NCBI RefSeq assembly: GCF_000466405.1
Contig: NZ_KE952943.1
Location: forward strand, 29,405-61,703
Source of the DNA: Atopobium sp. oral taxon 810 str. F0209
GTDB lineage: Bacteria > Actinomycetota > Coriobacteriia > Coriobacteriales > Atopobiaceae
Direction: 5' to 3'
DNA: 32,299 bases
Positions 1,726 through 32,283 of this stretch are shown one piece after another. Both the position numbers and the translations under genes were made by a program. The notes under the pieces are model-generated. The model worked only from the letters and a program-made list of their open reading frames with translations, had not been told where the DNA came from and made no database searches. Position 1 is the first letter of the stretch. The number at the start of each line of letters is the position of its first letter.

Positions 1726-1760
1726 CGCCCAAAAAATCTACCTGCGCAAACGTCAAGTCC

Positions 1761-10520: not shown

Positions 10521-10650
10521 GGATTCACGATTCATCAACCATCCTGAAAAGGGTTCGTTTTTCTCGTTTTGCTTCACAAAACACCTGGTGAATTTTGAGT
10601 CAATGATGAATTATGAACCCAAAACAGTGATGCTGATGAATTGTGAACCT
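10521..10650. repeat. 2+2 inverted repeat locus C (30-bp step)
   Basis: Two reverse copies, GGATTCACGATTCATCA at 10521 and the more diverged GGGTTCGTTTTTCTCGT at 10551, are 30 bp apart. Two forward copies, TGATGAATTATGAACCC at 10604 and TGATGAATTGTGAACCT at 10634, are also 30 bp apart. The inner pair spans 70 bp (10551-10620). The locus lies between convergent genes (ABC exporter and ubiB). The locus at 32141-32283 has almost the same dimensions. No gene is seen in the stretch 10402-10689. Confidence 0.6.
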
Positions 10651-10689
10651 TATTCGCAACATGGAGGACGCAAGGTAAGCTGGGGGGAA

Positions 10690-12417
10690 CTACTTATTTT
10701 GCTTGCGGCGATGGCTTTCGCGAAGGATGGAAATAACGATCCAAAGACCCAAAACAAGTGCCACTACATAGCCTAAAAATCCAATCACAGGAATGCCAAA
10801 AACAACAGGCTTAATGCGGGCAAAATACACCACCGATGAACCAATAAACAAGCCAGCAATAATAATACTCATTGCCAAGCGGTCAAGCGCATGTGCCAAA
10901 CTGCGCATAGGCCGATGTAGGCCATTCACATCAAGCTGTGTCCTTAGTTGGCCGCGGGTAAGCATGCGCGAAATGTTTGACATTTCGCTTCCTGCCTGCA
11001 GCAAACTATGAGTTGCTCGCCCAAATTCCATCGCGTAACTACGTGCCTCATCAATGGGAGCAGCGTGATCTTTGCGTACATGACTCACATGCTGCCCAAT
11101 GATGTCAACAATGGACGTACCAGGCAAAAATTCATCGACCAAACTCTCAAGGGTCACCAGCGAGCGGGCCAGCATCGTAACCGTACCCGGCAACTCGATG
11201 CCATTTTCACGTGCCATCGAAATCAACGCATTAAAGAAGCCCCCGATATCGAGCTCGGAAAGATCTGCTTCACCATAATTTGCAATAATTTGGTCTAGGT
11301 CTGCAAGCAAACTCGCATGATCAACTTCCGATACATCGGAGGAAGCAAAACGCAATAAACCATCTTTGAGTCGTACAGAATCACGCGTACCTACTGCTAC
11401 AACCATATCGGTCAGTGCTGCTCGATCAAGCGCAGTCAGGCGTCCCATAATGCCTAAATCGAGAAAAATCAACTGCCCATCGCGTACGACAAGGTTGCCT
11501 GGATGCGGATCGGCATGGAAGAAACCATCGTCCAGCATTTGGCGCGTGTAATTGTCAACCAGCTTTGAGCCAATTTCGGAGAGGTCATAGCCTGCCGCTT
11601 TGAGCTCATCAGTTTTGTCGACAGGGATACCCTCAACGTAATCCATCACGACTACATGACGGGTACACCAGCGCCAATACGGCTTGGGGCAGTCAACAAA
11701 TTTGCAGTTAGCATTATTGCGGCCAAACTCATCAAGACTTTTAGCCTCGACCAGAAAGTCCGTTTCTTCGACAAAAGACTGCCAGAGTTCATCGACCACT
11801 GAAGAAAAATCAATGAACTGCTTGCCCCGCATCAATTTGTCCATACGGCGCGCAAGAGAACGCATGATAGAGATATCCTGCGCCATCTTTTCTTGTACCT
11901 GAGGACGCTGAATTTTGATAGCTACTAGCTCACCTGTAACAAGACGCGCCTTATGCACCTGAGCAACCGATGCCGAACCCAACGGCACGTCGTCGATAGC
12001 GTCAAAAATATCCTCAATGGGGGTTGTATATTCGTCACGCAAAGCCTGCAGCATGGTCGTACGGTCCATGGGCTCGACTTCGGTACGTAACTTTTTGAGT
12101 TCATCACAAAAGCTTTCGGGCAAAATCTCCGAACGCATAGAAAGAATCTGCCCTGCTTTTACAAAAGTAGGCCCCAGCTCCTCAAGCAGAGACCTCATGC
12201 TCCGCGGCGTCAAACCATGCCAGACATCATAATGGCTGGCAATCGCCAAGATTTCCCTCAGACGAGACAGTTTGCTCGCCCGCGTAATTTGGTACTGGTC
12301 GGACGATGCATCTCGCCCACCAAAAATACCTATAGTCTCAAAGGCACCTTCTTCCGCCTTGAGAGCTTCTTCCCAGCCCTCAAGGCGGTCTTCAGGTCCA
12401 AATTCGTCTTCAGTCAC
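10690..12417 (-). CDS. ABC1/UbiB (AarF) family atypical kinase
   Basis: A 575-residue protein of the UbiB/ADCK family. Visible hallmarks: the KxGQ motif FVKAGQILSMRSEILP (KAGQ 87-90), the alanine-rich nucleotide loop PLGSASVAQVHKA (~145-157), the lysine K168 in VAIK, the catalytic-loop-like HADPHPGN (301-308) and the metal motif FLDLG (318-322). Two hydrophobic helices near the C terminus (~520-565) anchor it to the membrane, as usual. Family members support isoprenoid quinone biosynthesis or lipid handling as ATPases; whether this organism makes quinones cannot be seen here. It starts at GTG 12417 without a clear ribosome site, 30 bp after the phasin-like gene, so translation may depend on that gene. 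Confidence 0.9.
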   Translation of the reverse strand: MTEDEFGPEDRLEGWEEALKAEEGAFETIGIFGGRDASSDQYQITRASKLSRLREILAIASHYDVWHGLTPRSMRSLLEELGPTFVKAGQILSMRSEILPESFCDELKKLRTEVEPMDRTTMLQALRDEYTTPIEDIFDAIDDVPLGSASVAQVHKARLVTGELVAIKIQRPQVQEKMAQDISIMRSLARRMDKLMRGKQFIDFSSVVDELWQSFVEETDFLVEAKSLDEFGRNNANCKFVDCPKPYWRWCTRHVVVMDYVEGIPVDKTDELKAAGYDLSEIGSKLVDNYTRQMLDDGFFHADPHPGNLVVRDGQLIFLDLGIMGRLTALDRAALTDMVVAVGTRDSVRLKDGLLRFASSDVSEVDHASLLADLDQIIANYGEADLSELDIGGFFNALISMARENGIELPGTVTMLARSLVTLESLVDEFLPGTSIVDIIGQHVSHVRKDHAAPIDEARSYAMEFGRATHSLLQAGSEMSNISRMLTRGQLRTQLDVNGLHRPMRSLAHALDRLAMSIIIAGLFIGSSVVYFARIKPVVFGIPVIGFLGYVVALVLGLWIVISILRESHRRKQNK

Positions 12418-12447
12418 GGAAGAAAAACCTTTGCGGCACAGCGAATG

Positions 12448-12867
12448 CTATGCCTCAGCATCCTCGGACTTAGGCTCGTCCGCTGGCTCTACCTCAATTT
12501 CAACCTCAATATCGGGCTCCTCAACAGGCTCACCATCAACCTCAACAGGCTCAGCATTGAGGTCTTCTTTGATCTGAGTAATTTTTGCCACGTAGGCCTC
12601 GCGCTCCTCGGGTGTCATACCACGCAGACGGGCACGCAAAATACTTGCCTCGGTATCACTACTTGCCGCAGAAGCCTTGTGCTTGAGCTCTTCGTTGAGC
12701 GTCTTGCCCTGCTCTACCGTAAGCTCGCCCTTCTTGACCAGCTCTTCGATAATCGCGCCAGACTTTTCTGCAATCTGACCAGACATTTCTGCGCCAGTTG
12801 CAACAGCACCAATACCGGCTAGAAAAATCTTACGGGCGGTCTCGGACATGTCGTCAATCAGTGCCAT
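12448..12867 (-). CDS. Phasin-like coiled-coil protein
   Basis: A 139-residue protein that resembles the PhaI/phasin-like family (poly-hydroxyalkanoate granule-associated). It shows RKIFLAGIGAVATGAEMSG at the N terminus, then a charged amphipathic helical stretch (IIEELVKKGELTVEQGKTLNEEL), and a very acidic tail rich in E, P and D (~100-139). Start chosen at ATG 12867 because AAAGGAG precedes it by 6 nt; the longer frame upstream lacks such a site. Genes of this type are often found next to aarF/ubiB genes, as here. There is no PHA synthase in view, so storage-granule function is not implied; a lipid- or membrane-surface role is plausible. Confidence 0.75.
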   Translation of the reverse strand: MALIDDMSETARKIFLAGIGAVATGAEMSGQIAEKSGAIIEELVKKGELTVEQGKTLNEELKHKASAASSDTEASILRARLRGMTPEEREAYVAKITQIKEDLNAEPVEVDGEPVEEPDIEVEIEVEPADEPKSEDAEA

Positions 12868-12893
12868 GATAAGCTCCTTTGTTCGTAGCTTGT

Positions 12894-12946
12894 ACGGGTG
12901 TACACCCGTTGGCTTTTGTATACCCATCGTAGGCGAGCTCTGACAA
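12894..12946 (-). promoter_or_regulatory. Promoter and 16-bp palindrome upstream of the phasin-ubiB operon
   Basis: On the minus strand TTGTCA (12946-12941), a 17-bp spacer and GTATAC (12923-12918), or TATACA with 18. Just downstream is a perfect 16-bp palindrome ACGGGTGTACACCCGT (12894-12909), within the expected 5' leader, 27 bp before the ATG. It could be an operator covering the start of transcription or an mRNA hairpin. Confidence 0.55.
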
Positions 12947-13008
12947 AATTTTCCGCTCGTCTCCATGAGAACACCGTGAACGGTGGTTTTTGCCCTTCAG
13001 TTCAACAG

Positions 13009-13731
13009 CTAAAGGCCGCGAAGGATACGACCAAGCTGAGCCACACTGTGTACCACCGTGATGGCGCCTGCTTCCTCAAGCTCGCCGGCAGGCGCTGTAT
13101 CGCCAAAGTAGACACCGATGCAGGGCATGCCAACTTGTTTGGCAGCTTCGACATCATAATGCCTGTCGCCTACCATTACCGCTTGTCCAGCCGTAAAACC
13201 TAGCTTGTCGATGGCAGCCTGGATGGTATCAGCTTTGGTCTGCTTGTTAGTATCGTTTTTCTTGCCCTCAATAGCTTCGAAATAATCAGCAATCTTGCCA
13301 TCGCCTACACAACGCTCAAGCAGGCCCTGTCGTTTGGATGAAGCAACAGCTAAATGGCGCCCGTTGGCCTGCAACTGTGCCAACAACTCGGGAATACCGG
13401 CAAAAGGAGGCCAAGCTTCGGGACCGCAAGCATCATACAGCCTACGATAATGTGCAGTGACAGTGGCCGCATCTTTCTCCGATAAGCCATATACCTCGGT
13501 ATATGCTTGAGGAAAAGGTGGTCCAATCAGACGACGCAAGTCGCCCATCTCTTCTTCACTCATGCCAAAATCGCTTAACACAGTATGTGCCGTAGCCACG
13601 ATTGAATGAGTGGTATTACCCAGCGTGCCATCAAAATCAAAAAGGATACAGGGGCGCTGTGCAAGATCGACAATTCGCTCGATACCTCGTGGACCACCCG
13701 CATCAAGATCTGATAAAAAACGATAATTCAT
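13009..13731 (-). CDS. HAD-superfamily phosphatase (phosphoglycolate phosphatase-like)
   Basis: A 240-residue HAD hydrolase with an N-terminal extension of about 25 residues. Motif I is LFDFDGTLGN with the nucleophile D32 and acid D34. A C1-type helical cap follows (~45-110). Motif II is AVASSK, motif III lysine probably lies in NKQTKADTI, and motif IV is VMVGDRHYDVEAAK. The layout fits the Gph/PpaX-like subgroup acting on small phosphorylated metabolites; the substrate cannot be told. Good ribosome site (GGAGGAATTGA before ATG). Divergent from the DUF1015 gene across four tandem palindromes. Confidence 0.87.
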   Translation of the reverse strand: MNYRFLSDLDAGGPRGIERIVDLAQRPCILFDFDGTLGNTTHSIVATAHTVLSDFGMSEEEMGDLRRLIGPPFPQAYTEVYGLSEKDAATVTAHYRRLYDACGPEAWPPFAGIPELLAQLQANGRHLAVASSKRQGLLERCVGDGKIADYFEAIEGKKNDTNKQTKADTIQAAIDKLGFTAGQAVMVGDRHYDVEAAKQVGMPCIGVYFGDTAPAGELEEAGAITVVHSVAQLGRILRGL

Positions 13732-13811
13732 TCAATTCCTCCAAGCTTAGCGGCAAATTTCTTGTTAAATACGTCACCGCGACTCGAAATACACAAATCT
13801 ATTTTATCTAC

Positions 13812-13913
13812 TTGAGTTGTCACGAACTCAATACTCTGCTTGAGTTACCATGAACTCACAATCTATTTGAGTTGCAATAAACTCGTTCTCTGTTTGAGTT
13901 GCAATAAACTCGT
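13812..13913. repeat. Four tandem palindromes (TTGAGTT-N6-AACTCAA)
   Basis: Four 20-bp palindromic units begin at 13812, 13840, 13867 and 13894, stepped by 28, 27 and 27 bp. Unit 1 is perfect (TTGAGTT / AACTCAA around 6 nt). Units 3 and 4 are identical to each other (TTGAGTTGCAATAAACTCGT). They fill the region between the divergent HAD and DUF1015 genes and end 24 bp before the DUF1015 start. The symmetry and position suggest a multi-site operator for a dimeric repressor or activator. They are not CRISPR: the 7-8-bp spacers are too short. Confidence 0.75.
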
Positions 13914-13937
13914 ACGACCACAGCAAAAGGGATATCC

Positions 13938-15173
13938 ATGCACACTCAGCCAATATTCTGTTTTCGTCCCACACCTGAGAGAGCGGCTGATTTTGCTGCT
14001 CCACCCTATGATGTGTTTGACCGTACAAGTGCAGCTGAGTATGTAGCAGCACATCCTCAGTCATTCTTGGCCATCGATCGACCTGAAACCGCTTTTTCAG
14101 CAGAGCAGGACATGTATGCTCCCATAGTTTACGAAAAGGCACGTCAGCTGCTTAATGAGCGTGTAGTTGATGGCACCTTATTGCGCGATGAGTCGGCTTG
14201 CTACTATATCTGGCGCATGGCAGTCGATGGACATACCCAAACGGGTTTGGTTTGCGGAGCAGCGGTATCTGATTACGAAGATGGTGTCATCCGCCGTCAC
14301 GAGTTGACGCGCAAAGACAAGCAGCAAGATCGCATTAACCACATACGCGCAACTAGTGCGCAGACAGGACCCATTTTCCTTGCTTATCGCGACAACAGCG
14401 CACTGGATGCCTTGATTACACTGATGAGCAGCGCGGAGCCACTGTACGATTTTACAGACGAGGCTGGCTGCCACCACAGCATTTGGCGCGTGGCGCGTGA
14501 TGTAGCTGTAGGATCACTACAACTCATACTCGATCAAATACCTTGTGCCTACATTGCCGATGGACATCATCGAGCTGCATCGGCGGTTGCGGTGTGCCAA
14601 GAAAAGCGCACAAAGTTACAGGAAACAGACCAGAATACCTCCAGCGAAGCAGATACATTTTTAGCAGTACTTTTTCCAGCGAGCCAGTTGCATATTTTGC
14701 CGTACAACCGCGTTATCACTGATAAAGGCAGTAAAACGCAAACTGAAATATTTGCGGAATTGTGCAAGCAGGGCTTTGCCATTACGGAGGTAGATGATGT
14801 GGTAAACCCTGCTCAAAAAGGCATGTTTGGCTTGAAACTAGAAGGTAAATGGTATGAGTTAAGACTTACTGAGAAGTCTGCAAAAGATGACCCTGTTGCA
14901 AGGCTTGATACCTCTCTTGTTCAAAATCTTATCTTAAGCCCGATTTTTGGTATCAATGACCCTGCAGTTGACCCACGCATTTCTTTTATTGGTGGCAAAG
15001 ACGCAGCTCGACGCAGTGGGGAAGCCGCAGGAGATACGGGCGTTGCCATCACTTTGCACGCAACTTCGCTCGATGAGCTGATGTCCGTATCCGATGCTGG
15101 TTTGTTGATGCCGCCAAAGTCAACGTGGTTTGAGCCAAAACTCCTATCGGGACTTTTTATTCGTCATATCTAG
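13938..15173 (+). CDS. DUF1015 family protein
   Basis: A 411-residue cytoplasmic protein of the DUF1015 family, found widely in bacteria and archaea and without an established function. Family signatures are present: AAPPYDVFD near the N terminus (20-28) and IADGHHRAAS (206-215) in the centre. Length is typical. The paired histidines and acidic residue of DGHHR suggest an enzyme active site, but no reaction is known to me. Ribosome site AAAAGGGA before ATG 13938. It appears to be a single-gene unit controlled from the palindrome cluster upstream, with a hairpin downstream at 15183-15253. Confidence 0.85.
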   Translation: MHTQPIFCFRPTPERAADFAAPPYDVFDRTSAAEYVAAHPQSFLAIDRPETAFSAEQDMYAPIVYEKARQLLNERVVDGTLLRDESACYYIWRMAVDGHTQTGLVCGAAVSDYEDGVIRRHELTRKDKQQDRINHIRATSAQTGPIFLAYRDNSALDALITLMSSAEPLYDFTDEAGCHHSIWRVARDVAVGSLQLILDQIPCAYIADGHHRAASAVAVCQEKRTKLQETDQNTSSEADTFLAVLFPASQLHILPYNRVITDKGSKTQTEIFAELCKQGFAITEVDDVVNPAQKGMFGLKLEGKWYELRLTEKSAKDDPVARLDTSLVQNLILSPIFGINDPAVDPRISFIGGKDAARRSGEAAGDTGVAITLHATSLDELMSVSDAGLLMPPKSTWFEPKLLSGLFIRHI

Positions 15174-15182
15174 TCTAAATTC

Positions 15183-15253
15183 CACCACAGTCCCATTTTG
15201 CGGATATCAAAAAAATGTATCCGGTTTTGATATATGTCTACAACAGTGGAGGC
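15183..15253. terminator. Large inverted repeat after the DUF1015 gene
   Basis: Inner arms ATATCAAAA (15204-15212) and TTTTGATAT (15225-15233) pair exactly. Outer arms CCACCACAGT and ACAGTGGAGG pair with two mismatches. The element begins about 10 bp after the stop codon. It is plausible as a terminator or processing hairpin, but no long T run follows. Confidence 0.4.
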
Positions 15254-15338
15254 ATATCGAAAAAGCATAGCTAGGTTGAGCGTACAAAGCTTAGTGTCTT
15301 TATTTTTGACAAGTTTTGCTTCAAAAAATGTATCTAAG

Positions 15339-15376
15339 AAAACAGCTGCTTAACAGCTCTTTAAGACAGCTGTTTT
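15339..15376 (+). terminator. Hairpin AAAACAGCTG / CAGCTGTTTT
   Basis: Exact 10-bp stem (15339-15348 with 15367-15376) and an 18-nt loop, in the gap between the DUF1015 gene and the TPR gene. It could terminate readthrough or act as an attenuator 73 nt before the next start. I see no convincing promoter between it and the TPR gene. Confidence 0.5.
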
Positions 15377-15449
15377 GTTACAAGGAAGGTTTTAATGTCT
15401 GCCTGCTGGGGTATAAAACTATACAGAACAACTTGTGAAAGTGAGACGA

Positions 15450-18089
15450 ATGCGACTTTTTGGCCGTACTGATAAACAAAAAAATAAGGAAGCTTTAGCG
15501 CTTACTAGGAAATCGCAATTGAAGAAAGCGATTCTGTGGGTGTTGGGAATATCAGCTGCACTGAGCATAGCGAGATTTACGCCGAACAAAGAGTTGGCAA
15601 TTGCCGTATTGCTGGGTGTTATCGGTGGTGCTGTCAGCGCATATTTTCTTTTGCAGTCAAAACGCGAGGTGCTGCCAGCAAGAAAGCCTCTTGCTGTTGA
15701 TGATGTCAAAACTACTTGCCCTGTTGATGCTACAGAGCTTGCAGCTGAAGATACATCCAAAAGAAAGGATGTACCCAATCCCAAGCTGAACCTTAATACT
15801 ACACACGCCGATCAGGCACTTAACTCGTCTGAAGCGCCTGTAGTAGCCGAAGATGATGGTGAGCCCGCTTATCGCCAGTCACAACTTGACTTTACAGAGT
15901 TCACCAAAAAGCTACTTGAAAGCCCTGATCCTTTAGGTGAGCTCAAACTCTTTGCTGCAGATGTACGTGAACGCGAAAACTTCTACGGTGCCCCCGCCCT
16001 TGAAGAAGCAGACCTTGGCGAAGCAGAACCCAACGAGACTGTATCTCAGTTTGAATATGCCAAGGATGAAGAACCCCTACTACCCTCTGGTGTAGAGCTT
16101 TTCTTGGCACATCGCCTATATGAGTCGGGACTTTTTGACGAGAAGATTGAATTGCCTCATATACGCATTGTACGCCCTCATGCATCAGGCATGCTTTATC
16201 TTAGAATTGAGCAAGGACAGCTTCCCTACTCAGCAATGCTCACAATTCTGCGCATCGAAGCGGCACTCAATGCACTGCGCTTTGCTTACAGTTATTTTGA
16301 AGACCCACAGGATGCAAGCGAAGAAGATGTCGCCGTTCTCCAGCAGCGCATTACTTCTTCGATTGTGGCTCAGGCCGCACCTATTGATACCCCTATTGAG
16401 CTGCCTGAAGGTGTAGAACCTGATGGTGAGTGGGCAGTGCGCAACTGCATCTCAACAGCTATCGAGAGCTTCCAGTTGCCCTATCGCTTGACCGCATCAT
16501 GGCGCACCAATGTTGCCGATGGAAATGTCGCTATCGAAATTCAACTGGTACCTTCAGATGTCTTCCCCAATTCATGGGCAGTGCCGACGCTAAATGATGG
16601 AAACAAGCGCGTGAAAACCACCAAACAGATGCGCCGCCAAATGGCTTCTGCTTATGCTATTCGTCTCGCCCTGCTTTTGGCGGCAAGTGCGTTTCGCGCA
16701 TCCTCCAAAATTAAGCATGTTTGGGTAGCAGGCATTCTGGATAATGCCTCGCGTCATGATTGCTATCTTTCGGTGGATTTTGACCGTTGGCGTTTTGCCA
16801 AAACGGAGCTTGATCATACCGATGACCTTGAAAAAATTATGCGACCCTTCTGTCCTGTCATGCGCCTTGAGGATGGCTTTTTGCGTCCTGTTACGCAGAG
16901 TTTTTCTCTTTCAGAAGAGCGCTTCTGCCCGCGACGGCGTTATGAAAGCGTTTCGCTGTCAACACGCAAGCTACCAAAACACCTAGCAAATGCGCTAGGC
17001 ACCGACCACGTCAGCGGACTTGCTATCCAAGAATCCGAGAAGCGCGAAGCAATCGCTGATGACATTTTGCGGCGCTTGGTGGCGCCCGCGCGTGAACATG
17101 CAACTCAGCATAACGTCCACACCATCCTTGAGCTGGCAGGAGACGATCCTGACCCTAGTGTTCGTAGCGCTGCAGAGCGTACAGCAAATGCTCTAGTACG
17201 CGGATCGATTGATGGAGAGCCTCAATCAGTTGTCGAAGAATTTATGACAGGCGATGTGCTATCTCGTGCCTGCGAGCTAGCACGCAGGTCGTTACAAGCT
17301 CGCAACGCCACAGCTGCTCTTGAAGTACTCAAGGCTGCGCTGGAGCCACTGGATGCAGCCGGTGCATATGCTGATTCTCCACAGGTAGAATGGCGTTATT
17401 TCTCGAGTTTTGTAGACCGTGCGCTATACAATCGCAGTCACAAAGCCAATGGTCGCAGCCTCATGCTAGTACCTGATACCTACTACAATGCTCACGTGCT
17501 CGCAGTTATGGCTGAGCTCGCGCTGGGTCATGCTCAGCGCGCAACAGAACATGCCCAGGAATTGGTGCGTATTGCTCCCCTAGATGCACATGCAAAATTG
17601 CAATTGGTACGTTGTTTGGAAGCATCAGACAATGATAAAGCAGCTGTTGAGCTTCTAACGCGGTTGCTTAAAGAAGCGCACGATCCTCAAGCTGTTGGTA
17701 CTGCTTACTACCGCATGGCTTTCTTCCAATGGAAGCAGGGCAATATTTTGGCCGCACGTGCGTGCTATCAGATGGCAACACAATTTGTGCCAGCTGCTGC
17801 ACCAACCATTGCAATGGAACTCACAGCGCTCGCAATGCAGACAGGCACCAAAGATGCACGCGAGCCGCTCTCACCCACCGAACTGCACCACGTCCTTGAG
17901 ACTCACCATATTCCCGAGTCACCTACCGATGAGATGTCTGGGGTCTTTATGGAATGCGCCCAGGCATCACTAGATGCAGAAGTTTTTCCTGTTGCGCGGA
18001 ACTTCTTGTCCACACTGGCAGCCTTTACTCCTGACGATATCATCGTCGGAATGATGAACTCTCTCGAAAGTTTCCCCGACTCCTTGTAA
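15450..18089 (+). CDS. Large membrane-anchored TPR protein, unknown function
   Basis: An 879-residue protein from ATG 15450; GTG codons at 15435 and 15441 are in-frame alternatives and no start has a good ribosome site. Near the N terminus are two hydrophobic segments (~27-42 and ~48-68: ELAIAVLLGVIGGAVSAYFL), then an acidic low-complexity stretch (~75-215). The middle (~220-500) is a globular region I do not recognise. The C-terminal ~350 residues are helical, with TPR-like units around residues 685-790 (e.g. YYNAHVLAVMAELALGHAQRA; AKLQLVRCLEASDNDKAAVELL in parts; AYYRMAFFQWKQGNILAARA). Most of the protein would lie in the cytoplasm, tethered to the membrane, as a scaffold for a protein complex. 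Its flanks carry hairpins at both ends, so it looks monocistronic. Probably a lineage-specific family. Confidence 0.75.
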   Translation: MRLFGRTDKQKNKEALALTRKSQLKKAILWVLGISAALSIARFTPNKELAIAVLLGVIGGAVSAYFLLQSKREVLPARKPLAVDDVKTTCPVDATELAAEDTSKRKDVPNPKLNLNTTHADQALNSSEAPVVAEDDGEPAYRQSQLDFTEFTKKLLESPDPLGELKLFAADVRERENFYGAPALEEADLGEAEPNETVSQFEYAKDEEPLLPSGVELFLAHRLYESGLFDEKIELPHIRIVRPHASGMLYLRIEQGQLPYSAMLTILRIEAALNALRFAYSYFEDPQDASEEDVAVLQQRITSSIVAQAAPIDTPIELPEGVEPDGEWAVRNCISTAIESFQLPYRLTASWRTNVADGNVAIEIQLVPSDVFPNSWAVPTLNDGNKRVKTTKQMRRQMASAYAIRLALLLAASAFRASSKIKHVWVAGILDNASRHDCYLSVDFDRWRFAKTELDHTDDLEKIMRPFCPVMRLEDGFLRPVTQSFSLSEERFCPRRRYESVSLSTRKLPKHLANALGTDHVSGLAIQESEKREAIADDILRRLVAPAREHATQHNVHTILELAGDDPDPSVRSAAERTANALVRGSIDGEPQSVVEEFMTGDVLSRACELARRSLQARNATAALEVLKAALEPLDAAGAYADSPQVEWRYFSSFVDRALYNRSHKANGRSLMLVPDTYYNAHVLAVMAELALGHAQRATEHAQELVRIAPLDAHAKLQLVRCLEASDNDKAAVELLTRLLKEAHDPQAVGTAYYRMAFFQWKQGNILAARACYQMATQFVPAAAPTIAMELTALAMQTGTKDAREPLSPTELHHVLETHHIPESPTDEMSGVFMECAQASLDAEVFPVARNFLSTLAAFTPDDIIVGMMNSLESFPDSL

Positions 18090-18135
18090 GGCCACTATAA
18101 AGCCGCTCCACCTCTACCCAAACCTGTTCTAAGCT

Positions 18136-18172
18136 AAAAATCTGACCCAACCTCAGATTGGATCAGATTTTT
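18136..18172. terminator. Bidirectional terminator between convergent genes
   Basis: AAAAATCTGA (18136-18145) and TCAGATTTTT (18163-18172) pair exactly, and the inner CCAA/TTGG extends the stem after one mismatch. A and T runs on the two sides let it work in both directions, for the TPR gene (plus) and the surface-protein gene (minus). Confidence 0.85.
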
Positions 18173-18266
18173 CTGCAGACCATCTACCTACTCTTTTATC
18201 TCAGTTTACCTGGTGGATTCCTCGATAATCAATTGGGGACTCAGGAAACTCAATAACAAGGCTGTA

Positions 18267-19589: not shown

Positions 19590-19633
19590 CAACATCTCCT
19601 TTCTAAAATACAAACTATAAAAACTCCTTATTT

Positions 19634-19661
19634 ATTATAAACTTTAATAATTAACCCTCAA
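19634..19661 (-). promoter_or_regulatory. Promoter of the LPQTG surface protein
   Basis: On the minus strand TTGAGG (19661-19656), a 16-bp spacer and a perfect TATAAT (19639-19634), about 45 bp before the chosen ATG. Confidence 0.65.
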
Positions 19662-20030
19662 ACCCCTTGAAATACAAGGATATTTGCAAGAGAACAAGTT
19701 GAATTTACTACCAATTTACTACTTTTGAGGAAAAAGCCTTGATGTGCTGTAAAAACTCTTGCAGATAGGAACATTTTACCACAGATAGCACAAAGCATGT
19801 TGTGAGGATCAAAACTAAATAGGAAATCGTAAAAGCGGTGTTCTTTCGCTTCTGTTAAAGGAAGCATAGGATGCCGCTTTTTTCATGCCCATGTTACGAA
19901 GTAGAGGTAAATAAGGGCTTGAAATACAAAGCTTTCAGAGGGCGGTTTTGAAAAAGTAAGGGAAATATACCTTTTCTTTCAAAATTGCCCTTTTACTGCG
20001 TAACAAATAAAAAACGAAAGGAGTATCCGC
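19662..20030. other. Gene-free left flank of the foreign island
   Basis: No supported gene. The 12-bp word CTTGAAATACAA occurs at 19666-19677 and again at 19918-19929. A strong plus-strand terminator lies at 19832-19883. A minus-strand frame (19867-19658) carries a CAIC-like cysteine pair but matches nothing I know, and I do not call it a gene. Composition becomes AT-rich here, so this is the likely junction between backbone and island; no integrase gene or clear attachment core is visible. Confidence 0.45.
19832..19883 (+). terminator. Branched hairpin terminator at the island edge
   Basis: AAAAGCGG (19832-19839) pairs with CCGCTTTT (19874-19881), ending in six T. The loop holds a second hairpin, GCTTC/GAAGC (19849-19853 with 19861-19865). 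It would stop plus-strand transcripts before they enter the island genes. Confidence 0.65.
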
Positions 20031-20930: not shown

Positions 20931-20943
20931 AGGAGAAATCACT

Positions 20944-21165: not shown

Positions 21166-21198
21166 AAAAATTCAGAGAACAGGAAAGGAGGATGACAG

Positions 21199-21835: not shown

Positions 21836-21841
21836 TTAGAT
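21827..21841 (+). repeat. Candidate terminal inverted repeat, left end of cargo cassette
   Basis: TCCCCATTTTTAGAT here matches, with one gap and one change, the inverse complement of 26454-26467 (TCCCCATTTAAGAT). A TGA/TGT precedes CCCC at the two ends, as in some IS3-like ends. The acyltransferase stop codon lies inside this repeat. Confidence 0.4.
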
Positions 21842-22855: not shown

Positions 22856-22927
22856 TATTGTTATAGTATTTGCAGTTTTAAGGAAGCTGACTGCACCTCT
22901 TTTTTTTTAAGCACTGTTATTTTCACC

Positions 22928-24871: not shown

Positions 24872-24960
24872 AATATTTTTCTCCTGTTAATATTTTTCTA
24901 ACAGCTGATTGCTGTGACTCAATTCTATGATATAGCCTTTTGTTCAGCTTTATTTATAGT

Positions 24961-26286
24961 TTAGTCGATTTTTGTTATTTTAGGTGCTTTCCACGTTCCG
25001 TTTAACACGCTGTTACCGGGTCTATATATTCTAAGATAAAGATGAAATCCTCTCTCTCCTACAGGTAACCAGTTTTCTCTGTTTTCATTCGGTTCTTCAG
25101 TTTGAAGAATCAAGTCCAGGGAATTATCGTCGTTTAACCTGAAGTCGTTTCGATTGCTTATAGCATAACGTTCGATTGGGTTTGAAATCAAAAAATCATC
25201 ATCTCCGTATGCGGTTATCGACCAAAACCCATATTTTCCGACAGGCGGAAGTCCATCGGCGTTGAAATGTAACAAGTATCTGTTTTTTGCATCCAGCTTT
25301 TCACCTTTGTTATCTTCTTCTGCTTTAAGGTAAACGGCGACATCTACAGGATTGGCACCGAAACCCGCAATTGCAACGAGACAGCGATATCCGTATTGCG
25401 TACCGAAACGACTTATCGGATCTCCGTAAAATTTAAAGTTACCATTTCTCACCATGAAGCAGGATGTTTCCTCAATAAGCTTCGGAAGAAGGCGATCTTT
25501 CATTTCCTGCCAAAATTTTTCCAAATCTACAGGTGAAAGAGAAGATTTAAAAGAGCATCCGGCACCTATTCCTAATTCAGCAAGTTCACTGAGTAATTCA
25601 CCGTCCTCCGAATATGCCGGATTGTCGCTTAATAATCTGTTTACCATCTCGAAATAAGCATTGGAAGACAACTTCATCGCAAGCATAATCGGAATACCCT
25701 CTTTATCCGGATCATAGGTACCTTTAGGCATTTCGCCACCTGTAAGCCAAACAGATAATGTTTTTGTTTCCATCTCATTTTGCAATTTATATATGTTCGC
25801 TATATCCTCAGGACCATAGCAGATTGTCCTTCCGATAAGCCATCCGATAGAAGTAGGAACCTCTATTCTCTTCATGCCGTCGGGAATATTTCCCTTAAAA
25901 GCAGGCCCTGTGAGTATGTAGGTCCTTTCTTCGTCTGTATCCCCGCCGGTTCCCAAAATCGCTACGGTATTTGACCATGCATCCATTATTTGAAACATCA
26001 GATACCTGCCGGCTTGCGGTTTTTTAATCACAAGTGCATCATCCTTTAAATCGAAAAAAATCTGCGAATACAGAGTATCGACATTTGGTGTAACAACCTG
26101 TCTGAACTCCGATGTCGCAAGATCTTTCGCATGAAGAAACTGATTGACTGGAGACTTTGATTTAGCAGGTTCTATCGTGTTTGTGCTGACATCCTTGGTG
26201 ATATTCATCAGAACCAGCGGAAAAGAAAAGATAAACGCCCTCTCTATGAGCAACTTTTCTCTTTCAATTTTCATTTCATTTTCCAT
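24961..26286 (-). CDS. DUF1254/DUF1214 domain protein
   Basis: A 441-residue protein. The N-terminal half (~10-125) fits DUF1254 (FSFPLVLMNITKD, then FLHAKDLATSEFRQVVTPNVDTLYSQIFFDL) and the C-terminal ~110 residues fit DUF1214 (GKYGFWSITAYGDDDFLI, then NPIERYAI, then WLPVGERGFHLYLRIYRP). Function of these beta-rich domains is not established; they often accompany catabolic or stress genes. No signal peptide, unlike many Gram-negative relatives. Start chosen at ATG 26286, which has GGAGG 8 nt upstream; the ATG at 26301 does not. First gene of the cargo operon, 89 bp before the sulfatase gene, so the two may act on the same substrate. Confidence 0.85.
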   Translation of the reverse strand: MENEMKIEREKLLIERAFIFSFPLVLMNITKDVSTNTIEPAKSKSPVNQFLHAKDLATSEFRQVVTPNVDTLYSQIFFDLKDDALVIKKPQAGRYLMFQIMDAWSNTVAILGTGGDTDEERTYILTGPAFKGNIPDGMKRIEVPTSIGWLIGRTICYGPEDIANIYKLQNEMETKTLSVWLTGGEMPKGTYDPDKEGIPIMLAMKLSSNAYFEMVNRLLSDNPAYSEDGELLSELAELGIGAGCSFKSSLSPVDLEKFWQEMKDRLLPKLIEETSCFMVRNGNFKFYGDPISRFGTQYGYRCLVAIAGFGANPVDVAVYLKAEEDNKGEKLDAKNRYLLHFNADGLPPVGKYGFWSITAYGDDDFLISNPIERYAISNRNDFRLNDDNSLDLILQTEEPNENRENWLPVGERGFHLYLRIYRPGNSVLNGTWKAPKITKID

Positions 26287-26565
26287 CTTAAAATCCTCCA
26301 TAATACTTTATACTTTATTATTTTTTTGACTGAACTCACACATAATCATATTCTTAAGTAAAACTAAAAACAAATATAAAGCTTATAATTTGCGTCTTAA
26401 TATTCTTAATCTTTTTCTTTATATGATGATTAAAGTGCTTTAACTTTTTATATATCTTAAATGGGGACATATTTATTGCATATTTGCTATAAATTATTCT
26501 TTTATGTACGATGCGGCGAGAGTTTTCTACCATACTTCGAGTGTACAAATACCTAACTGCTTATA
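26287..26565. other. AT-rich gene-free right flank of the island
   Basis: Holds the presumed promoter of the cargo operon: on the minus strand TTCAGT, a 16-bp spacer and TATAAA, close to the DUF1254 gene. Beyond it the sequence is very AT-rich, with no reading frame I trust. The candidate right inverted end lies at 26454-26467. Backbone composition resumes after about 26,500. Confidence 0.4.
26454..26467 (-). repeat. Candidate terminal inverted repeat, right end of cargo cassette
   Basis: ATCTTAAATGGGGA, followed by CA, is the inverted partner of 21827-21841. Together they enclose the DUF1254-sulfatase-acyltransferase operon and its promoter, about 4.6 kb. No target duplication is evident. 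Confidence 0.4.
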
Positions 26566-26598
26566 TAAAAAAGGCATCAGACAAAAAGCCTGATGCCT
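26566..26598 (-). terminator. Terminator of the first dipeptidase gene
   Basis: On the minus strand AGGCATCAG (26598-26590) pairs with CTGATGCCT (26580-26572) around a 9-nt loop, followed by six T. It begins 26 bp after the stop codon. Confidence 0.88.
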
Positions 26599-26623
26599 AA
26601 AGCCATACATGTACAAGCAGAGC

Positions 26624-28039
26624 TTAGAGGTCAAGCTTCATAAGGCGAGACATTGCAACGATGTAAATCTCCAAAGCCTTCTTGAACTGCTCCTCAGAGA
26701 AACCTTCATCGGCAGAGTGCTCAGCGCCAATCCAGTCGGGCATCGGGAAGGCGGGGTCATTGGGACCAAAGGCGCAGGCACACTTGAAGTGACGCGCATA
26801 GGTACCTCCACCGATAACATAAGCCTTGGAATCGCGACCAGTGTACTCGTTGTACGTGTCCACGCAGGTCTGAATTGCGGGATTATCGGGCTTGATATAG
26901 AAGGTTGGCATATCAAGATCCACAGTGAGATTAGCGTCGTAATCAGCAAGAACCTTCTCAATGGCAGCGCTAATTTCATCTGAGCTAATAGAGGTCGGAT
27001 AACGAGAGTCGATGGTCTGTTCAAACATACCGTCCTTGGTGCGGATGGTACCACCGATGCAGGTCAGAGGACCAAACATCTCATCACGGGAAGCAAAGCC
27101 CATGGAAGAGCCATCAGTAGTGCAAAGTACCTTATGATCAAGCTCAAGGAAGCGACGCTCTGCCTCGCTACCAATACCATTCTCCAAGAGATAATCAACA
27201 AGAACGAGAATCGCGTTTACGGAACCCTCGGGCGTGGAGGCATGAGCACCTATACCAGTAGCTACGATACGAACTGTACCGTCACCCAAGTCCTCAACCT
27301 CAATACGGTCGGCAGCGGTAAGCTTGGAAGCATCGGCGCGTACGTTTGCAATCGCCTGACCAGGAACAGCGTTGCCAGCAGTGCCACCCTCAAAGCTTAC
27401 AATCTGGTCGGCAATTGCCTTGTTGGGACGAATGGTGGCAGAATAACCACCCTTTTCGCCACAGATTACAGGGAAGTCTGCATCGGGAGTAAAGAGGAAT
27501 GCGGGCTGCTCGAAGTTCTCGATATACCACTCCACGTCACGCATATCGGTCTCTTCATTGTTGCCGATGATGCAACGGATGGTATAAGGCAGAGGCTCTC
27601 CAGTCTTGTCAGCCTGCTCTTTGAAGAACTTGGCTGCATACATACCCATAACCAGAGGACCCTTGTCATCAAGAACACCGCGACCAATCATATAGCCATC
27701 CTTACGGGTGACTTCAAAGGGCGGGAAGGTCCAACCAGTGCCTTCGGGCACGATATCGGTATGACCAATAAGAGCGAGCTGCTTTTTGGAAGCGCCAGGA
27801 ATATCTGCATAAGCAATATGGCCGTCACAATTGTGAGTATCAAAACCCATACGTTCTGCAATATCGCATGCAGCGCACAAAGCCTCGTAGGGCTTGGGGC
27901 CATACGGCATGCCCTCGGTAGCATGCTCCATATCCTCAACGGAACGAATACTGACAAGGGTAGCAACATCAGCAACAATGTTCTCCCACTCGCGCTCAAT
28001 ATAAGCGCGCGCGTCCTGCTTGACCTGCTCGTCTGCCAT
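26624..28039 (-). CDS. Sapep/PepV-type M20 metallo-dipeptidase, copy 1
   Basis: A 471-residue zinc/manganese dipeptidase of the M20 family, cytoplasmic, cleaving dipeptides taken up or formed during peptide breakdown. Metal and catalytic motifs are complete: LIGHTDIVPEG (H93, with D95), GRGVLDDKGP (bridging aspartate ~D124), GNNEETDM (E162, E163), TPDADFPVICGEKG (aspartate at ~186-188) and a C-terminal GGGTYARHF. The lid/dimer domain sits between (~200-380). Length equals that of PepV and Sapep. Ribosome site AAAGGAC, 5 nt before ATG. A same-length paralogue lies at 29167-30582 with a HAD gene between them. PepV-like carnosine dipeptidase is the closest alternative name. Confidence 0.92.
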   Translation of the reverse strand: MADEQVKQDARAYIEREWENIVADVATLVSIRSVEDMEHATEGMPYGPKPYEALCAACDIAERMGFDTHNCDGHIAYADIPGASKKQLALIGHTDIVPEGTGWTFPPFEVTRKDGYMIGRGVLDDKGPLVMGMYAAKFFKEQADKTGEPLPYTIRCIIGNNEETDMRDVEWYIENFEQPAFLFTPDADFPVICGEKGGYSATIRPNKAIADQIVSFEGGTAGNAVPGQAIANVRADASKLTAADRIEVEDLGDGTVRIVATGIGAHASTPEGSVNAILVLVDYLLENGIGSEAERRFLELDHKVLCTTDGSSMGFASRDEMFGPLTCIGGTIRTKDGMFEQTIDSRYPTSISSDEISAAIEKVLADYDANLTVDLDMPTFYIKPDNPAIQTCVDTYNEYTGRDSKAYVIGGGTYARHFKCACAFGPNDPAFPMPDWIGAEHSADEGFSEEQFKKALEIYIVAMSRLMKLDL

Positions 28040-28331
28040 GACAGTCCTTTCTGCCGAAGCTAATTTGATTGCATAACCATTGCTAGTTTAGCGTTTAATA
28101 TCACCAGATAGAAACAAAGCGGCAAAGCGCTTAGCGGCTCGGTAGACGGCTAAAGTTTGCTGGTAGAGTCTTTGGACATACACAATTTATGCAGAAAGTC
28201 ATGCACAAAAGATACATGAGGCTAACTTGCATGAAATAGTAGTATGTGTCTGCAATTGAATCGCAGCATAAGCCATAGACTCCTTTAGAATGCCAAAGAC
28301 AACAACATACCCCGCGCAGAACGGTAAATAG

Positions 28332-29000
28332 ATGGCAGTAGATAAACGACTTTGGCCAGCAGAATTTGCAGGTGCAATTTTTGATTTTGATGGAACAATT
28401 GCCGAAACGCACTCCATTTGGCATGAGGTTGATCAGATATTTTTAGGTTCACGCGGTATTGAGGTTGATTTTGAGTACCAGAGAATGCTCTCAATGATGG
28501 GTTTCCAGGCGGGCGCACGCTATACCATCGAGCGTTTTGGTCTGCGCGAAACTGTCGATGAAATTTGTGATGAGTGGAACCGGTTGGGTAAGGCACTCTA
28601 CCACAGTCGTGTGCATTTGCGGCCAGGCGCTCAAGCCTATATCGAAGCCCTAGGAAAGCAGGGCATCCCCTGTGCATTGGCAACAGTAAACGATGCCGAG
28701 GTATTAGAATCATGTCGCCATATTGATGTGCGCAGCCTTTTTGACCAGCGAGTTTACGGGAAGGAAGTGGCACATCCCAAGGACCATCCCGACATTTACC
28801 TCGAAGCGGCTCACCGGCTTGGTGTTGCCCCCGCTAACTGTATTGTATTCGAAGATCTTGCTGCAGGCATTCGTTCTGCTCATAGTATTGGGATGTTAAC
28901 CTGCGCTGTTGCTAGTAATGACCCTATGCAAGACGAGCAGGTCGTAACACAGCTCGCAGATATTTTTTTGCCCGACTGGCAGGATATTAATCTGGCATAA
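28332..29000 (+). CDS. HAD-superfamily sugar phosphatase / beta-phosphoglucomutase-like
   Basis: A 222-residue HAD hydrolase. Motif I IFDFDGTIAET (D18 nucleophile, D20 acid), C1 helical cap (~30-95), motif II ATVND, motif III lysine in HPKDHPDIYLEAA, and motif IV VFEDLAAGIRSAHSIGM. The last two are typical of the beta-phosphoglucomutase/sugar-phosphatase branch. Substrate unknown. It is the only plus-strand gene between the two dipeptidase paralogues, and divergent from copy 1. The 290-bp gap upstream shows no clear promoter or ribosome site. A 25-bp inverted repeat follows the stop codon. Confidence 0.85.
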   Translation: MAVDKRLWPAEFAGAIFDFDGTIAETHSIWHEVDQIFLGSRGIEVDFEYQRMLSMMGFQAGARYTIERFGLRETVDEICDEWNRLGKALYHSRVHLRPGAQAYIEALGKQGIPCALATVNDAEVLESCRHIDVRSLFDQRVYGKEVAHPKDHPDIYLEAAHRLGVAPANCIVFEDLAAGIRSAHSIGMLTCAVASNDPMQDEQVVTQLADIFLPDWQDINLA

Positions 29001-29069
29001 AATGTCGCCCCAAGCCTCGCTTGAAGCGACAGATAAAGCGAATCTGCTTCCATAAAATACAATTGCTTC

Positions 29070-29152
29070 CACAGATGGTTCATTCCTCGAGTTCGGAGAA
29101 AAATTTATCTGCGGTTTGGTGGTTGTTGAACTCGAAGTTTGAACCATCTGTG
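29070..29152. repeat. Inverted repeat locus D (25-bp arms)
   Basis: CACAGATGGTTCATTCC.. at 29070-29094 is the inverse complement of 29128-29152 (..GTTTGAACCATCTGTG) at 22 of 25 positions, with 33 bp between the arms. The GGTTC and GAACC cores span 71 bp (29076-29146), the same inner span as loci at 10551-10620 and 32176-32246. It sits between convergent genes and could fold into a hairpin in either transcript, but lacks a T run. Confidence 0.72.
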
Positions 29153-29166
29153 ACATAAGCAAACTT

Positions 29167-30582
29167 TTAGAGTTCGAGCTCCATCAGACGAGCAATGCTC
29201 ACGATGTAAATTTTGAGCGCGCGCTTAAGGCTGGCCTCAGGAATTGCCTCATCGGGACCATGCTCAGGGCCTGCCCATTCGGGTACAGGATCGGCTGGAT
29301 CCCAAGGACCAAAGGCAGCTCCACGGGCAAAGTGGCGCGCATAGGTACCACCGCCAATGGTAAAGGCCTTGCCTTCACGTCCGCTATACTCTTCATAGGT
29401 ATCCAACAAGCAACGAATTTCGGGCAGCTCAGGGTCAACATAAAAAGGCGTAACATTGCGACCCTCAGCGTAACTGCAGCCATATTTAGCTCCAAAGGTG
29501 CTAAGCGTTTCGGTAATGCTTTCGCCCGTTGTGCTAGTTGGGAAGCGTGAATCAACCGTTTGTACAAAGCAGCCATTCTCCGTGCGCACTGTGCCGCCAA
29601 TGAGCGTCAGTGGCCCGAACTTATCATCTTCACTGGCAATGCCCACCGAAGAGCCATCTGTTGTCGCAAGCAGTATGCGCTCCATCTCGAGGAAGACACG
29701 CTCCTCATCAGAGCACAGGTTTTGCTCTAGCAAGTAATCAACAAGCAAAGCAATTGCATTGACGGTACCAGCAGGCATAGAGGCATGACCACCCTTGCCA
29801 TGAGCAGTAATGAGTGCCTGACTATCCCCCGCTGCCTCAATATCGATGTTATCGGCTTCAGGCAACTCACTTGCTACACGCCTGACCACAGCAGTCGCGC
29901 GACCAGGAATTGCATTACCAACCGTACCACCATCAAGTTCAACGATGATGCCACCTGCGATCTTGCCCGAGCAAAAAGTTCCTGAATACAGGCCCTTCTC
30001 ACCACAAATCAGCGGAAATTCTGCATCAGGCGAAAACGCAAATTCGGGCATGGGGTAGCGCTCAAGATACCAGTCAAGGTCTTTCATACTGGTCTCTTCA
30101 TTGTTGCCCACGATGCAACGCAGAGTATACGGGAGCTTCTTGCCTGTACGTTGAACCTCACGCGCAAAATAGTGAGCAGCATAAAGCGATAACACGCAGG
30201 GACCCTTATCGTCCAAAACACCACGACCAACTAGGCAACCTTCCTTACGAGAAACATCAAAAGGAGGAAAGGTCCAACCCAAGCCCTCGGGCACAACATC
30301 AGTATGGGCAATAGTGGCGATTTGCTTGTCCGACTCACCGATAAGGTCTGCATAGCCCAAATAACCTTCGCACTCATGTGCATCCAAGCCCAAGCGATCG
30401 GCAATTCCGAGACCTACTACCAGCGCCTCATGGGAAGCAGGACCCCAAGGCATACCAGGCTTCGCAGCAGTGCGATCCTCGACAGAACGGATACGCACGA
30501 GCCTGCGAATATCAGCAACAACGTCTTCCCAGACCTCATCTACAAAGGTATCAACGTTCTGCTTGAATTGTTCATCAATCAT
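29167..30582 (-). CDS. Sapep/PepV-type M20 metallo-dipeptidase, copy 2
   Basis: Also 471 residues and alignable end to end with copy 1. Motifs: TIAHTDVVPEG, GRGVLDDKGP, GNNEETSM, SPDAEFPLICGEKG and GGGTYARHF, so the metal site looks intact. The lid domain and the segment after SPDAEFP differ most from copy 1, suggesting a different peptide preference. Ribosome site GGGAGG, 6 nt before ATG 30582. Nearly identical size, same strand and proximity indicate an old local duplication, with the HAD gene either inserted or carried between. Confidence 0.92.
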   Translation of the reverse strand: MIDEQFKQNVDTFVDEVWEDVVADIRRLVRIRSVEDRTAAKPGMPWGPASHEALVVGLGIADRLGLDAHECEGYLGYADLIGESDKQIATIAHTDVVPEGLGWTFPPFDVSRKEGCLVGRGVLDDKGPCVLSLYAAHYFAREVQRTGKKLPYTLRCIVGNNEETSMKDLDWYLERYPMPEFAFSPDAEFPLICGEKGLYSGTFCSGKIAGGIIVELDGGTVGNAIPGRATAVVRRVASELPEADNIDIEAAGDSQALITAHGKGGHASMPAGTVNAIALLVDYLLEQNLCSDEERVFLEMERILLATTDGSSVGIASEDDKFGPLTLIGGTVRTENGCFVQTVDSRFPTSTTGESITETLSTFGAKYGCSYAEGRNVTPFYVDPELPEIRCLLDTYEEYSGREGKAFTIGGGTYARHFARGAAFGPWDPADPVPEWAGPEHGPDEAIPEASLKRALKIYIVSIARLMELEL

Positions 30583-30710
30583 CTAGGCCTCCCGACCTCC
30601 ATACTCACATTTTTGCGCGGAGCAAAACGAAGCAAAAGGAGTCGACAACCCAGACCTATCGCAGCGGATACTCGCGCGTCAATCTAGTTTAGTTTAAACA
30701 CCTATTTGGT

Positions 30711-31859
30711 TTAGATGCTTGCCATCTCAGAGGAGACGGAAGAATACCAGAAAGAGTAATTGGGCGGACAATACTTCTTTGCTGCGCTTAGCGAGATGGT
30801 ATAGCCATAGCCACTCGCAAGACCGGCAACGTGAGCATTGATAGCCTCTTCCCAACTGCCCCAGCTAGAACTACCCCAGCCCCAAGCATTATGCGGCTTA
30901 AAGCAAGCAGCACCTTTACTAGACTCGATGCATGAAATTGCCGGAGACCAGCGAGGGTCAACACCATAGCGCAGGGCAGCTTCGGCAAAGGTCCTACCTT
31001 GACCGGCAAGCGGCGAACCTGCAAGGTAGGCATCAATGCGTGCGGCCCAAGAGTCAACAGAGTCAGACGAAGAAGAACCGCTGCTTTCTTTGTTGCCATC
31101 CTCAGTTTCGACCGCAGACTTGTTGTGCTCAACTTTTGCAGGAGCTGACTCTTCTTTTTTGGTGTTGGAGCTAACCTTAGCTTCGTTGCCACTAGCGGTC
31201 TTAAAGGTTTTATTTTCGGACTCAGCTTTTTTTGCCTCGGCAAGAGCTGCCTCGCGGGCTGCCGCCTCTTCCTTTGCCTGCTCGGCCGCGCGAGCCTCTG
31301 CCTCAGCACGAGCTTCCTCGGCTGCATTCAATGCATCTGCTGCTTTTTGACGGGCTTTCTCGGCCTCTGCTTTTTCAGCTTTGAGACTTGTCTGAGCTAC
31401 TTCAAGCTCATTTTGCATCTCTACCAAAGAACTAATTTCATCGGTATTTTTGTCCGAAATGATATTGAGATACTGAAGAGTCGACAACAAACTCGAGAAA
31501 TCCTCAGAAGAAAGCACTAAATCAATCAAGCCGCCACGGGACTGCTGGAACTTGTAAAGAACGCGCATAGAGCTTGCAGACTTTTCACGCTGCTCAGGGA
31601 GTTTGGCGGTAATCGTGTCAATACGATCTTGAACCTCACTCATGCGCTCCTTGACGTCTTCGACTTTCTTGACCGCGGCATCATAGTCGTCGTTTGCCTT
31701 CTCGATACGCTTGGCAATAGAGGCGATGTCATCTTTGCCAGCGGCGTGTGCGACACTGGGAAGAACAGCCGGCATTGAGAATGCAAACAAAGTACCCACA
31801 AGTGCAAGTACAAGAATCTTGTTTGCTTGTCGACCAGTTGCTGCCTGCCTTTGCTGCAC
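30711..31859 (-). CDS. Secreted coiled-coil peptidoglycan hydrolase (lysozyme-like C-terminal domain)
   Basis: A 382-residue exported protein. Start chosen at GTG 31859: AAGGGA lies 7 nt upstream, and it gives a proper signal peptide (basic start, NKILVLALVGTLFAFSMP, cleavage near AHA-A at ~40). A longer open frame begins at ATG 31997 but would add a poorly suited 46-residue extension. Residues ~45-215 form a PcsB/CwlO-like coiled coil, continuing into an alanine/glutamate-rich helix and a Ser/Lys/Glu linker (~215-275). The C-terminal domain (~278-382) has a lysozyme/transglycosylase look: YGVDPRWSPAISCIESSKG with candidate catalytic glutamate E312, then NAWGWGSSSWGSWEEAI and a Cys near the end. 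The coiled coil suggests control by a partner such as FtsEX; not shown here. Confidence 0.82.
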   Translation of the reverse strand: MQQRQAATGRQANKILVLALVGTLFAFSMPAVLPSVAHAAGKDDIASIAKRIEKANDDYDAAVKKVEDVKERMSEVQDRIDTITAKLPEQREKSASSMRVLYKFQQSRGGLIDLVLSSEDFSSLLSTLQYLNIISDKNTDEISSLVEMQNELEVAQTSLKAEKAEAEKARQKAADALNAAEEARAEAEARAAEQAKEEAAAREAALAEAKKAESENKTFKTASGNEAKVSSNTKKEESAPAKVEHNKSAVETEDGNKESSGSSSSDSVDSWAARIDAYLAGSPLAGQGRTFAEAALRYGVDPRWSPAISCIESSKGAACFKPHNAWGWGSSSWGSWEEAINAHVAGLASGYGYTISLSAAKKYCPPNYSFWYSSVSSEMASI

Positions 31860-32140
31860 GCTAAAGTCCCTTCTTCTGCGCACCTTTTGGCCGCATAAGC
31901 GGAGGTACGTCTTGTCTCTCAAGTAGTGCTTTGCCGCCCAAGACCAAGACGACGACGTGTCTTGCAAATAAAAAACCCTTCTTTTGGTGGGCCGCAACAG
32001 CTGTTAAGCAAGCTACAGATCCCACGTAACTTTCGAAATTTTACCCGAGAGAAGCCCATACGCCAAACGCCAACCAATAACTGCAGGAATTTGGCACAAG
32101 TCGACTTTGAGGGTTGGGGGGAGCCATGTCCTGCTTCCCC
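31860..32140. other. Leader and intergenic region upstream of the wall-hydrolase gene
   Basis: No gene. On the minus strand it holds a small hairpin CCGC-TTAT-GCGG (31891-31902), CAAGAC/GTCTTG (31945-31950 with 31959-31964) and a 10-bp palindrome AACAGCTGTT (31996-32005). CGCCAAACGCCAA at 32061-32073 resembles the core of repeat A in reverse. I looked for a ydaO-type cyclic-di-AMP riboswitch, common before such genes, and did not find its conserved words. Confidence 0.4.
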
Positions 32141-32283
32141 ACAACGGGTTCAAAAGCGTCCCTTCAGCTTGCAAACGGTTCAAAACCGTACCTTACACGC
32201 CACAAAACCGCTGATAAAAATTTTCGCAAGGGCGCTTATTGAACCCGATGTAAGCAAAAGGGTGCTTTTTGAACCCGTTGTAG
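32141..32283. repeat. 2+2 inverted repeat locus B (30-bp step)
   Basis: Reverse copies ACAACGGGTTCAAAAGCG (32141) and GCAAACGGTTCAAAACCG (32171) are 30 bp apart. Forward copies GGGCGCTTATTGAACCCG and GGGTGCTTTTTGAACCCG (cores at 32239 and 32269) are also 30 bp apart. The inner pair spans 71 bp (32176-32246). The geometry matches locus C at 10521-10650. No gene to the right within the window. Confidence 0.72.

Follow-up and report, generated by a model that had tools for sequence, protein, structure and literature searches.

The stretch of DNA analysed here (the window; 32,299 nucleotides of contig NZ_KE952943.1, positions 29,405 to 61,703) belongs to the 1.95-Mb, 38-contig genome of the vaginal bacterium Atopobium sp. 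oral taxon 810 str. F0209, an Olegusella genome referred to below as G000. Two kinds of feature in it concern us: intergenic imperfect palindromes bounded by GGTTC and GAACC, and an orphan gene lying between two further palindromes that share their centre. The nearest relative is Olegusella massiliensis KHD7 (genome G004, contig NZ_FLLS01000002.1; 94% protein identity for the open reading frame at 29167-30582), and the congeners compared also include G001-G003. The pattern and profile counts reported here cover the whole of G000, and the other statistics a sample of about 450 kb.

An earlier note on this DNA had drawn attention to three of the palindromes, and their GGTTC..GAACC inner pairs lie where it placed them, with spans one base tighter on each side (68, 69 and 69 bp). 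Locus C has its core at 10552-10619 (+), a 68-bp imperfect palindrome of type III with the centre ACAAAACACCTGGTGAATTTT, bordered by an outer left half-unit at 10521-10551 (+) and an outer right half-unit at 10620-10649 (+). The core of locus D (type II, 69 bp, borders ACAGAT/ATCTGTG) lies on the reverse strand at 29077-29145, and that of locus B (type I, 69 bp) at 32177-32245 (+), with outer half-units at 32147-32176 (left, +) and 32246-32275 (right, +); past the window end and an assembly gap stands a further type I copy. The outer pairs that had been seen 30 bp outside the cores of C and B consist of arm half-units in tandem, present in differing numbers in different copies. Two of the three loci had been placed between convergent genes, which holds for C and D. 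Within the window GGTTC-N55..65-GAACC has 3 matches against 0.27 expected from dinucleotide shuffles, and each locus folds far more strongly than its shuffles (z -4.6 to -5.3).

Each copy of the element is a 68-69 bp imperfect palindrome in which a conserved asymmetric centre, AAAANNGCAGGT, is held between type-specific arms. We aligned 40 copies from G000 and 14 from KHD7, oriented by the centre (69 columns, nearly gap-free); the end GGTTC, the end GAACC and the C..G of the centre are invariant, and the consensus reads GGTTCAA..TTCG......(C)A.AAAA.CGCAGGTCA.ATTTT......CGAA..ATGAACC. Types I, II and III have this centre in common, their arms being GGTTCAAAACCGTACC/GGGTGCTTATTGAACC in type I, ACAGAT-GGTTCAAGCTTCGG/CCGAA..TGAACC-ATCTGT in type II and AAAG-GGTTCCTTTTTCACG/GGTGATGAATTATGAACC in type III. 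The same stem mismatches recur from copy to copy (7-8 with 62-63 in type II, 11-13 with 57-59 in type I), and the arms pair in 83% of cells as compared to 75% with shuffled partners (0 of 500 shuffles as high), an excess that is partly due to subfamily structure. The core may be accompanied on either side by extra half-units of 30-31 bp (0 to about 4), the left-type as a rule preceding the core and the right-type following it, and a fixed 24-bp junction also links cores. A subset of type II copies carries about 60-85 bp of an additional shared upstream module, GCACATGCAAGCTTCGCTATTTGGAGCACAGGTGGGATACAAACCACA (L023:9837-9967, L024, L027, L037 and L021).

Some simpler accounts of this anatomy were considered and set aside. 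Nested insertion as the origin of the outer pairs was rejected because the central 19 bp would then be missing and because units duplicate independently on each side. An integron attC site requires boxes of the form RYYYAAC...GTTRRRY, and the order here is GGTTC...GAACC. Over 10 nt the centre resembles the antisense of the 16S rRNA 3' end, which was judged to be chance because those positions vary.

The earlier note had made an excess over control sequence the test of its pattern. Genome-wide, GGTTC-N57..59-GAACC has 88 matches in G000 against 19 for the reversed control pattern, and the pattern is upheld; at the same spacing the counts are 20 against 14 in KHD7 and no more than background in 58 other relatives. 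A 69-column profile of the element, R1, gives 119 matches in G000 (both-strand duplicates included, corresponding to about 105 loci with full-length copies), 32 matches (about 26 loci) in KHD7 and none in the congeners G001-G003. Assembly gaps and contig ends fall at element arrays (position 32299 of the window and the ends of contigs C8, C15 and C26), and the copy numbers are therefore lower bounds. Outside the genus R1 finds weak yet full-length matches (69 bp long in genus g7), and the elements of other genera have the same architecture with the centre CACAAAANNGCAGGTC and unrelated arms, for instance GTGTGGGTGCGATTCTCCCG in G076/G010, AAAGTCTGTAG in G093, TTAATGTGCAAACTTCG in G350 and GATTAACGGGCAAAATTCG in G111/G123. 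Centre and layout thus persist where the sequence of the arms changes; the claim that core and geometry are kept holds for the centre and the palindromic layout across genera, but the arms are not fixed. Matches to the GGTTC/GAACC pattern in viral contigs are single and scattered, a protein search of viral contigs returned no match, and at the Rfam gathering score the elements are unmatched, with only tRNA and aspS found elsewhere. The original observation is real and was understated; beyond it lie the three arm types (III at C, II at D, I at B), the conserved centre and a fourth arm type, IV.

Type IV stands beside a gene. A single gene for a 338-aa protein lies between two near-identical elements in G076 and G010, an arrangement that suggested the pairing. 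G000 has three homologues of this gene, every one of them with elements on both sides and with an arm type of its own: type I at C17:180190-181074, type II at C17:161001-161861 and type IV in the window at 541-1557 (+; C11:29945-30952), where the product is the orphan 338-aa protein. To the right of the window gene a type IV element at 1703-1785 (-), with arms GCCAAACGCCAC/GTGGCGTTTG and, on the reverse strand, the centre TTTGCGCAGGTAGATTTTTT, forms the core of an array at 1569-1940 with tandem half-units on both sides; to the left, half-units of a second type IV array occupy 1-120, their core lying just outside the window (L256:9205-9299). Type IV is a new arm type that shares the centre of the others. 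Of 1-kb blocks drawn at random from G000, 0.6% have elements on both sides within 700 bp.

The partner family is present in 166 of 395 Coriobacteriales genomes. The query gene had been chosen for its flanks in G076, and the independent test consisted of 33 homologue loci with G076 and G010 left out: a flank repeat common to both sides, in most cases a hairpin, was found within 1500 bp at 21 of the 33 (3 of 250 random blocks) and within 500 bp at 15 of them (0 of 300 in the control). Most of the long shared flank repeats are strong hairpins of 66-157 bp; a few shared ones are short (20-25 bp) and weak. The pairing is also present in the congener G001, with yet another arm, and in G113 the element flanking the gene has about 20 dispersed copies. 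In G000, dispersed copies resemble those flanking the genes, the closest at 99% and 98% identity over 100 bp for type II, 99.1% over 115 bp for type IV and up to 88% for type I. We are thus dealing with a repeat family of defined geometry, paired with a gene and matched to it by arm type at three genes. A 396-aa protein, P0001 (L203:1220-2407, G350:C190), lies among five elements of another arm type; it has no significant similarity to the partner family and is perhaps a distant analogue of it.

The partner protein carries a motif of the kind found in nucleases. Among 32 homologues E212, E259, D261, G262 and K265 never vary, while 31 have D245, and these residues fall within RVDFLW...GE.DG..K, a PD-(D/E)XK-like signature (E259-x-D261-G-x-x-K265 in the window protein) in which, at motif level, the active-site residues D...E-x-K are present. 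On this conservation we predict a PD-(D/E)XK-like nuclease. The C-terminal half is 54% conserved and the N-terminal half 37%, which would fit a role of the N-terminus in reading the arms. The VDF..GE.DG..K motif resembles that of DUF559, one of the DUF559/Vsr-type endonuclease domains, and the genes of Rpn (YhgA-like, Transposase_31) are not known to be flanked by palindromes. Rpn is a PD-(D/E)XK-type nuclease proposed to promote recombination (PMC5350276); the partner protein differs in having no detectable Pfam match.

Alternatively, the protein might resemble AbiEi in being a DNA-binding or defence protein that regulates its own gene, with the flanking elements as its operators and the dispersed copies as secondary binding sites that arose through gene conversion or slippage and not through the protein. 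Inverted repeats of their own promoter are bound by AbiEi-type antitoxins (PMC7319586), and the weak matches of AbiEi profiles to the N-terminal half, as well as an element at both sides of the gene, speak for such a role. Elements lie, however, past both gene ends and up to 600 bp away, and not at the promoter alone; moreover there are about 100 dispersed copies genome-wide, the recent ones near-identical and at unrelated sites, and the extra nuclease-like C-terminal domain, which sets the protein apart from AbiEi, keeps its catalytic residues in 31-32 of 32 homologues. We consider this explanation unlikely.

To the young copies near-identical to the gene-flanking ones, comparison with KHD7 adds units missing from the sister species and reversals of orientation at shared sites. 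None of the three units of gene and elements is present at its orthologous site in KHD7, a type IV remnant being left at one of these sites; a 78-aa relic of the gene lies elsewhere in KHD7 (L219, G004:C2:1445376-1445609), yet about 26 elements persist there, older type II copies included. Nine element sites are occupied in both genomes, with the orientation reversed at five, and at locus D the orthologous KHD7 site holds an element in the opposite orientation. Other G000 sites, among them locus C, are empty in KHD7, and half-unit numbers differ between orthologues. The resolved copies lie in 17 convergent, 16 tandem and 2 divergent gaps, as compared to 69, 156 and 64 such intergenic gaps in the same DNA. 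This enrichment between convergent genes, with the strong folding, might suggest hairpins that serve the host, for instance as bidirectional terminators or mRNA stabilisers, and are kept by selection. The convergent bias equally fits tolerance of insertions, as has been argued for BOX, RUP and SPRITE (PMC3049150), and selected hairpins accord poorly with elements that are absent from nearly all relatives, congeners included, that are reversed at about half of the orthologous sites and whose sites can be simply empty in KHD7; we find a host function very improbable.

Another possibility is that the elements are classical miniature inverted-repeat transposable elements, moved in trans by an ordinary DDE transposase, with the orphan gene as cargo or hitch-hiker. 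Terminal inverted repeats, a size of 69-300 bp and intergenic positions would fit, and the pneumococcal BOX and RUP have partly been explained in this manner (PMC3049150). No target duplication was seen at the compared sites, however, and a transposase search covering the ISL3 and Y1 families found one broken ISL3 remnant (L038, G000:C35:49559-49938), which we rejected as a source, its ends being unrelated. Moreover, the arm type goes with the orphan gene at all three genes, and other genera have the pairing too, with arms that are unrelated; such an origin is improbable. BOX, RUP and SPRITE of Streptococcus pneumoniae are like the present elements in having about 100 copies, a variable number of modules, stem-loops, a convergent bias and restriction to a species, but differ in sequence and layout, and no dedicated gene is described between them (PMC3049150). 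Target-site duplications are reported for BOX and RUP (PMC3049150), whereas none were seen for the G000 elements. For modularity and distribution, BOX is the nearest analogue.

The earlier note had likened the loci in style to repetitive extragenic palindromic (REP) sequences and bacterial interspersed mosaic elements (BIMEs), with a seemingly selected spacing, and had looked to a REP-associated tyrosine transposase (RAYT) or a DNA-binding protein as partner. The likeness stands in so far as the elements are high-copy, extragenic, palindromic, mosaic, convergent-biased and lineage-restricted, but the RAYT is absent: G000 has no match to PF01797, and the same search was positive in 5 of 14 control genomes. 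In REPtrons (TnpA-REP) each repeat type has its own gene, with copies of the repeat at both gene flanks and others dispersed elsewhere (PMC6006769, PMC8266576). The present elements share with them high-copy extragenic palindromes, a gene flanked by its own repeat type with further copies dispersed, conserved stem mismatches, several types per genome and a patchy distribution; the differences are the unit of 68-69 bp with tandem 30-bp arm half-units and the predicted PD-(D/E)XK-like partner. A GTAG/CGTC-type foot was not found in the element flanks inspected, the 69-column alignment starting with GGTTC and ending with GAACC. Genuine REP/BIME elements, with a Y1 (HUH) RAYT as their mover, would account for the overall organisation (PMC6006769, PMC8266576), but with the PF01797 protein absent from G000, the GTAG foot absent and units of 69 bp in place of 20-50 nt, we regard this reading as extremely improbable, and a RAYT as mover is refuted for G000 unless the unassembled part encodes one. 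Because the Y1 protein and the GTAG foot are absent, the system is REPtron-like in organisation and not a member of the REP/RAYT group.

The window loci are members of a modular palindromic family that, we think, probably works like a REPtron with a different kind of enzyme. At a master locus, a gene for an AbiEi-like/PD-(D/E)XK-like protein would have a palindromic element on each side, both with the same arm type. The variable N-terminal domain may read the type-specific arms and the half-units, spaced by about three helical turns, and the conserved C-terminal nuclease-like domain would cut the element in its duplex form or as an extruded hairpin. When the cut is repaired, elements could be copied to new intergenic sites, old ones replaced in either orientation, and half-units added or removed. 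Catalysis, the domain roles in reading and the copying step are what we infer; most likely the element is bound and cut by its protein, and elements are copied or exchanged during the repair that follows.

Several findings weigh against the scheme of a dedicated nuclease. Sequence searches of Pfam, NCBIfam and PDB found no match to the 338-aa protein, AbiEi profiles match the N-terminal half of some members weakly (E 2e-6 to 0.01) and of others not at all, the nuclease call rests on motif conservation, and a single-sequence structure model was unusable (predicted local distance difference test, pLDDT, 34). About a third of the homologue loci have no shared flank repeat, many of the positive loci come from a single genus (g4) and are not independent, and several flank repeats of other genera are without the AAAANNGCAGGT centre. 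For the type III arms (window 10552-10619 and other copies) we found no partner gene, and no target-site duplication is visible at the sites compared with KHD7.

Other hairpins were seen in the genomes compared. A many-copy perfect hairpin beginning GCCGACCGTTCGTAATTCGGCC, with a core of about 48 bp, occurs in G188 (L174, L180) and is possibly another repeat family, while the GGGACAGGTTCATTTGTCTC / GGGGACGGTTCATCTGTCC hairpins of G111 (L182, L188) and G369 (L176) look like a separate REP-type family.

To our knowledge, HUH/Y1 is the sole enzyme family tied so far to the spread of short bacterial palindromic repeats. The pairing of the orphan gene with palindromic elements is undescribed in the open-access literature searched, and a description elsewhere is possible. 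A second, unrelated pairing bears on the question of how such repeats come to spread. Both here and in related bacteria of the gut and vagina, the repeats and the predicted enzyme appear to form a partnership of a new kind, by which copies are spread through the chromosome. We hold it to be an evenly balanced possibility that it represents a new class of repeat dissemination, found in about 40% of sampled Coriobacteriales and driven by a PD-(D/E)XK-type nuclease that is dedicated to the elements and has a DNA-reading domain easily re-targeted, not by an HUH/RAYT or DDE enzyme. The presence of several arm types in one genome, each with its own protein, provides natural experiments on specificity, and the copying step is testable. 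Finally, the association suggests a possible function for an orphan protein family of human gut and vaginal Coriobacteriales.

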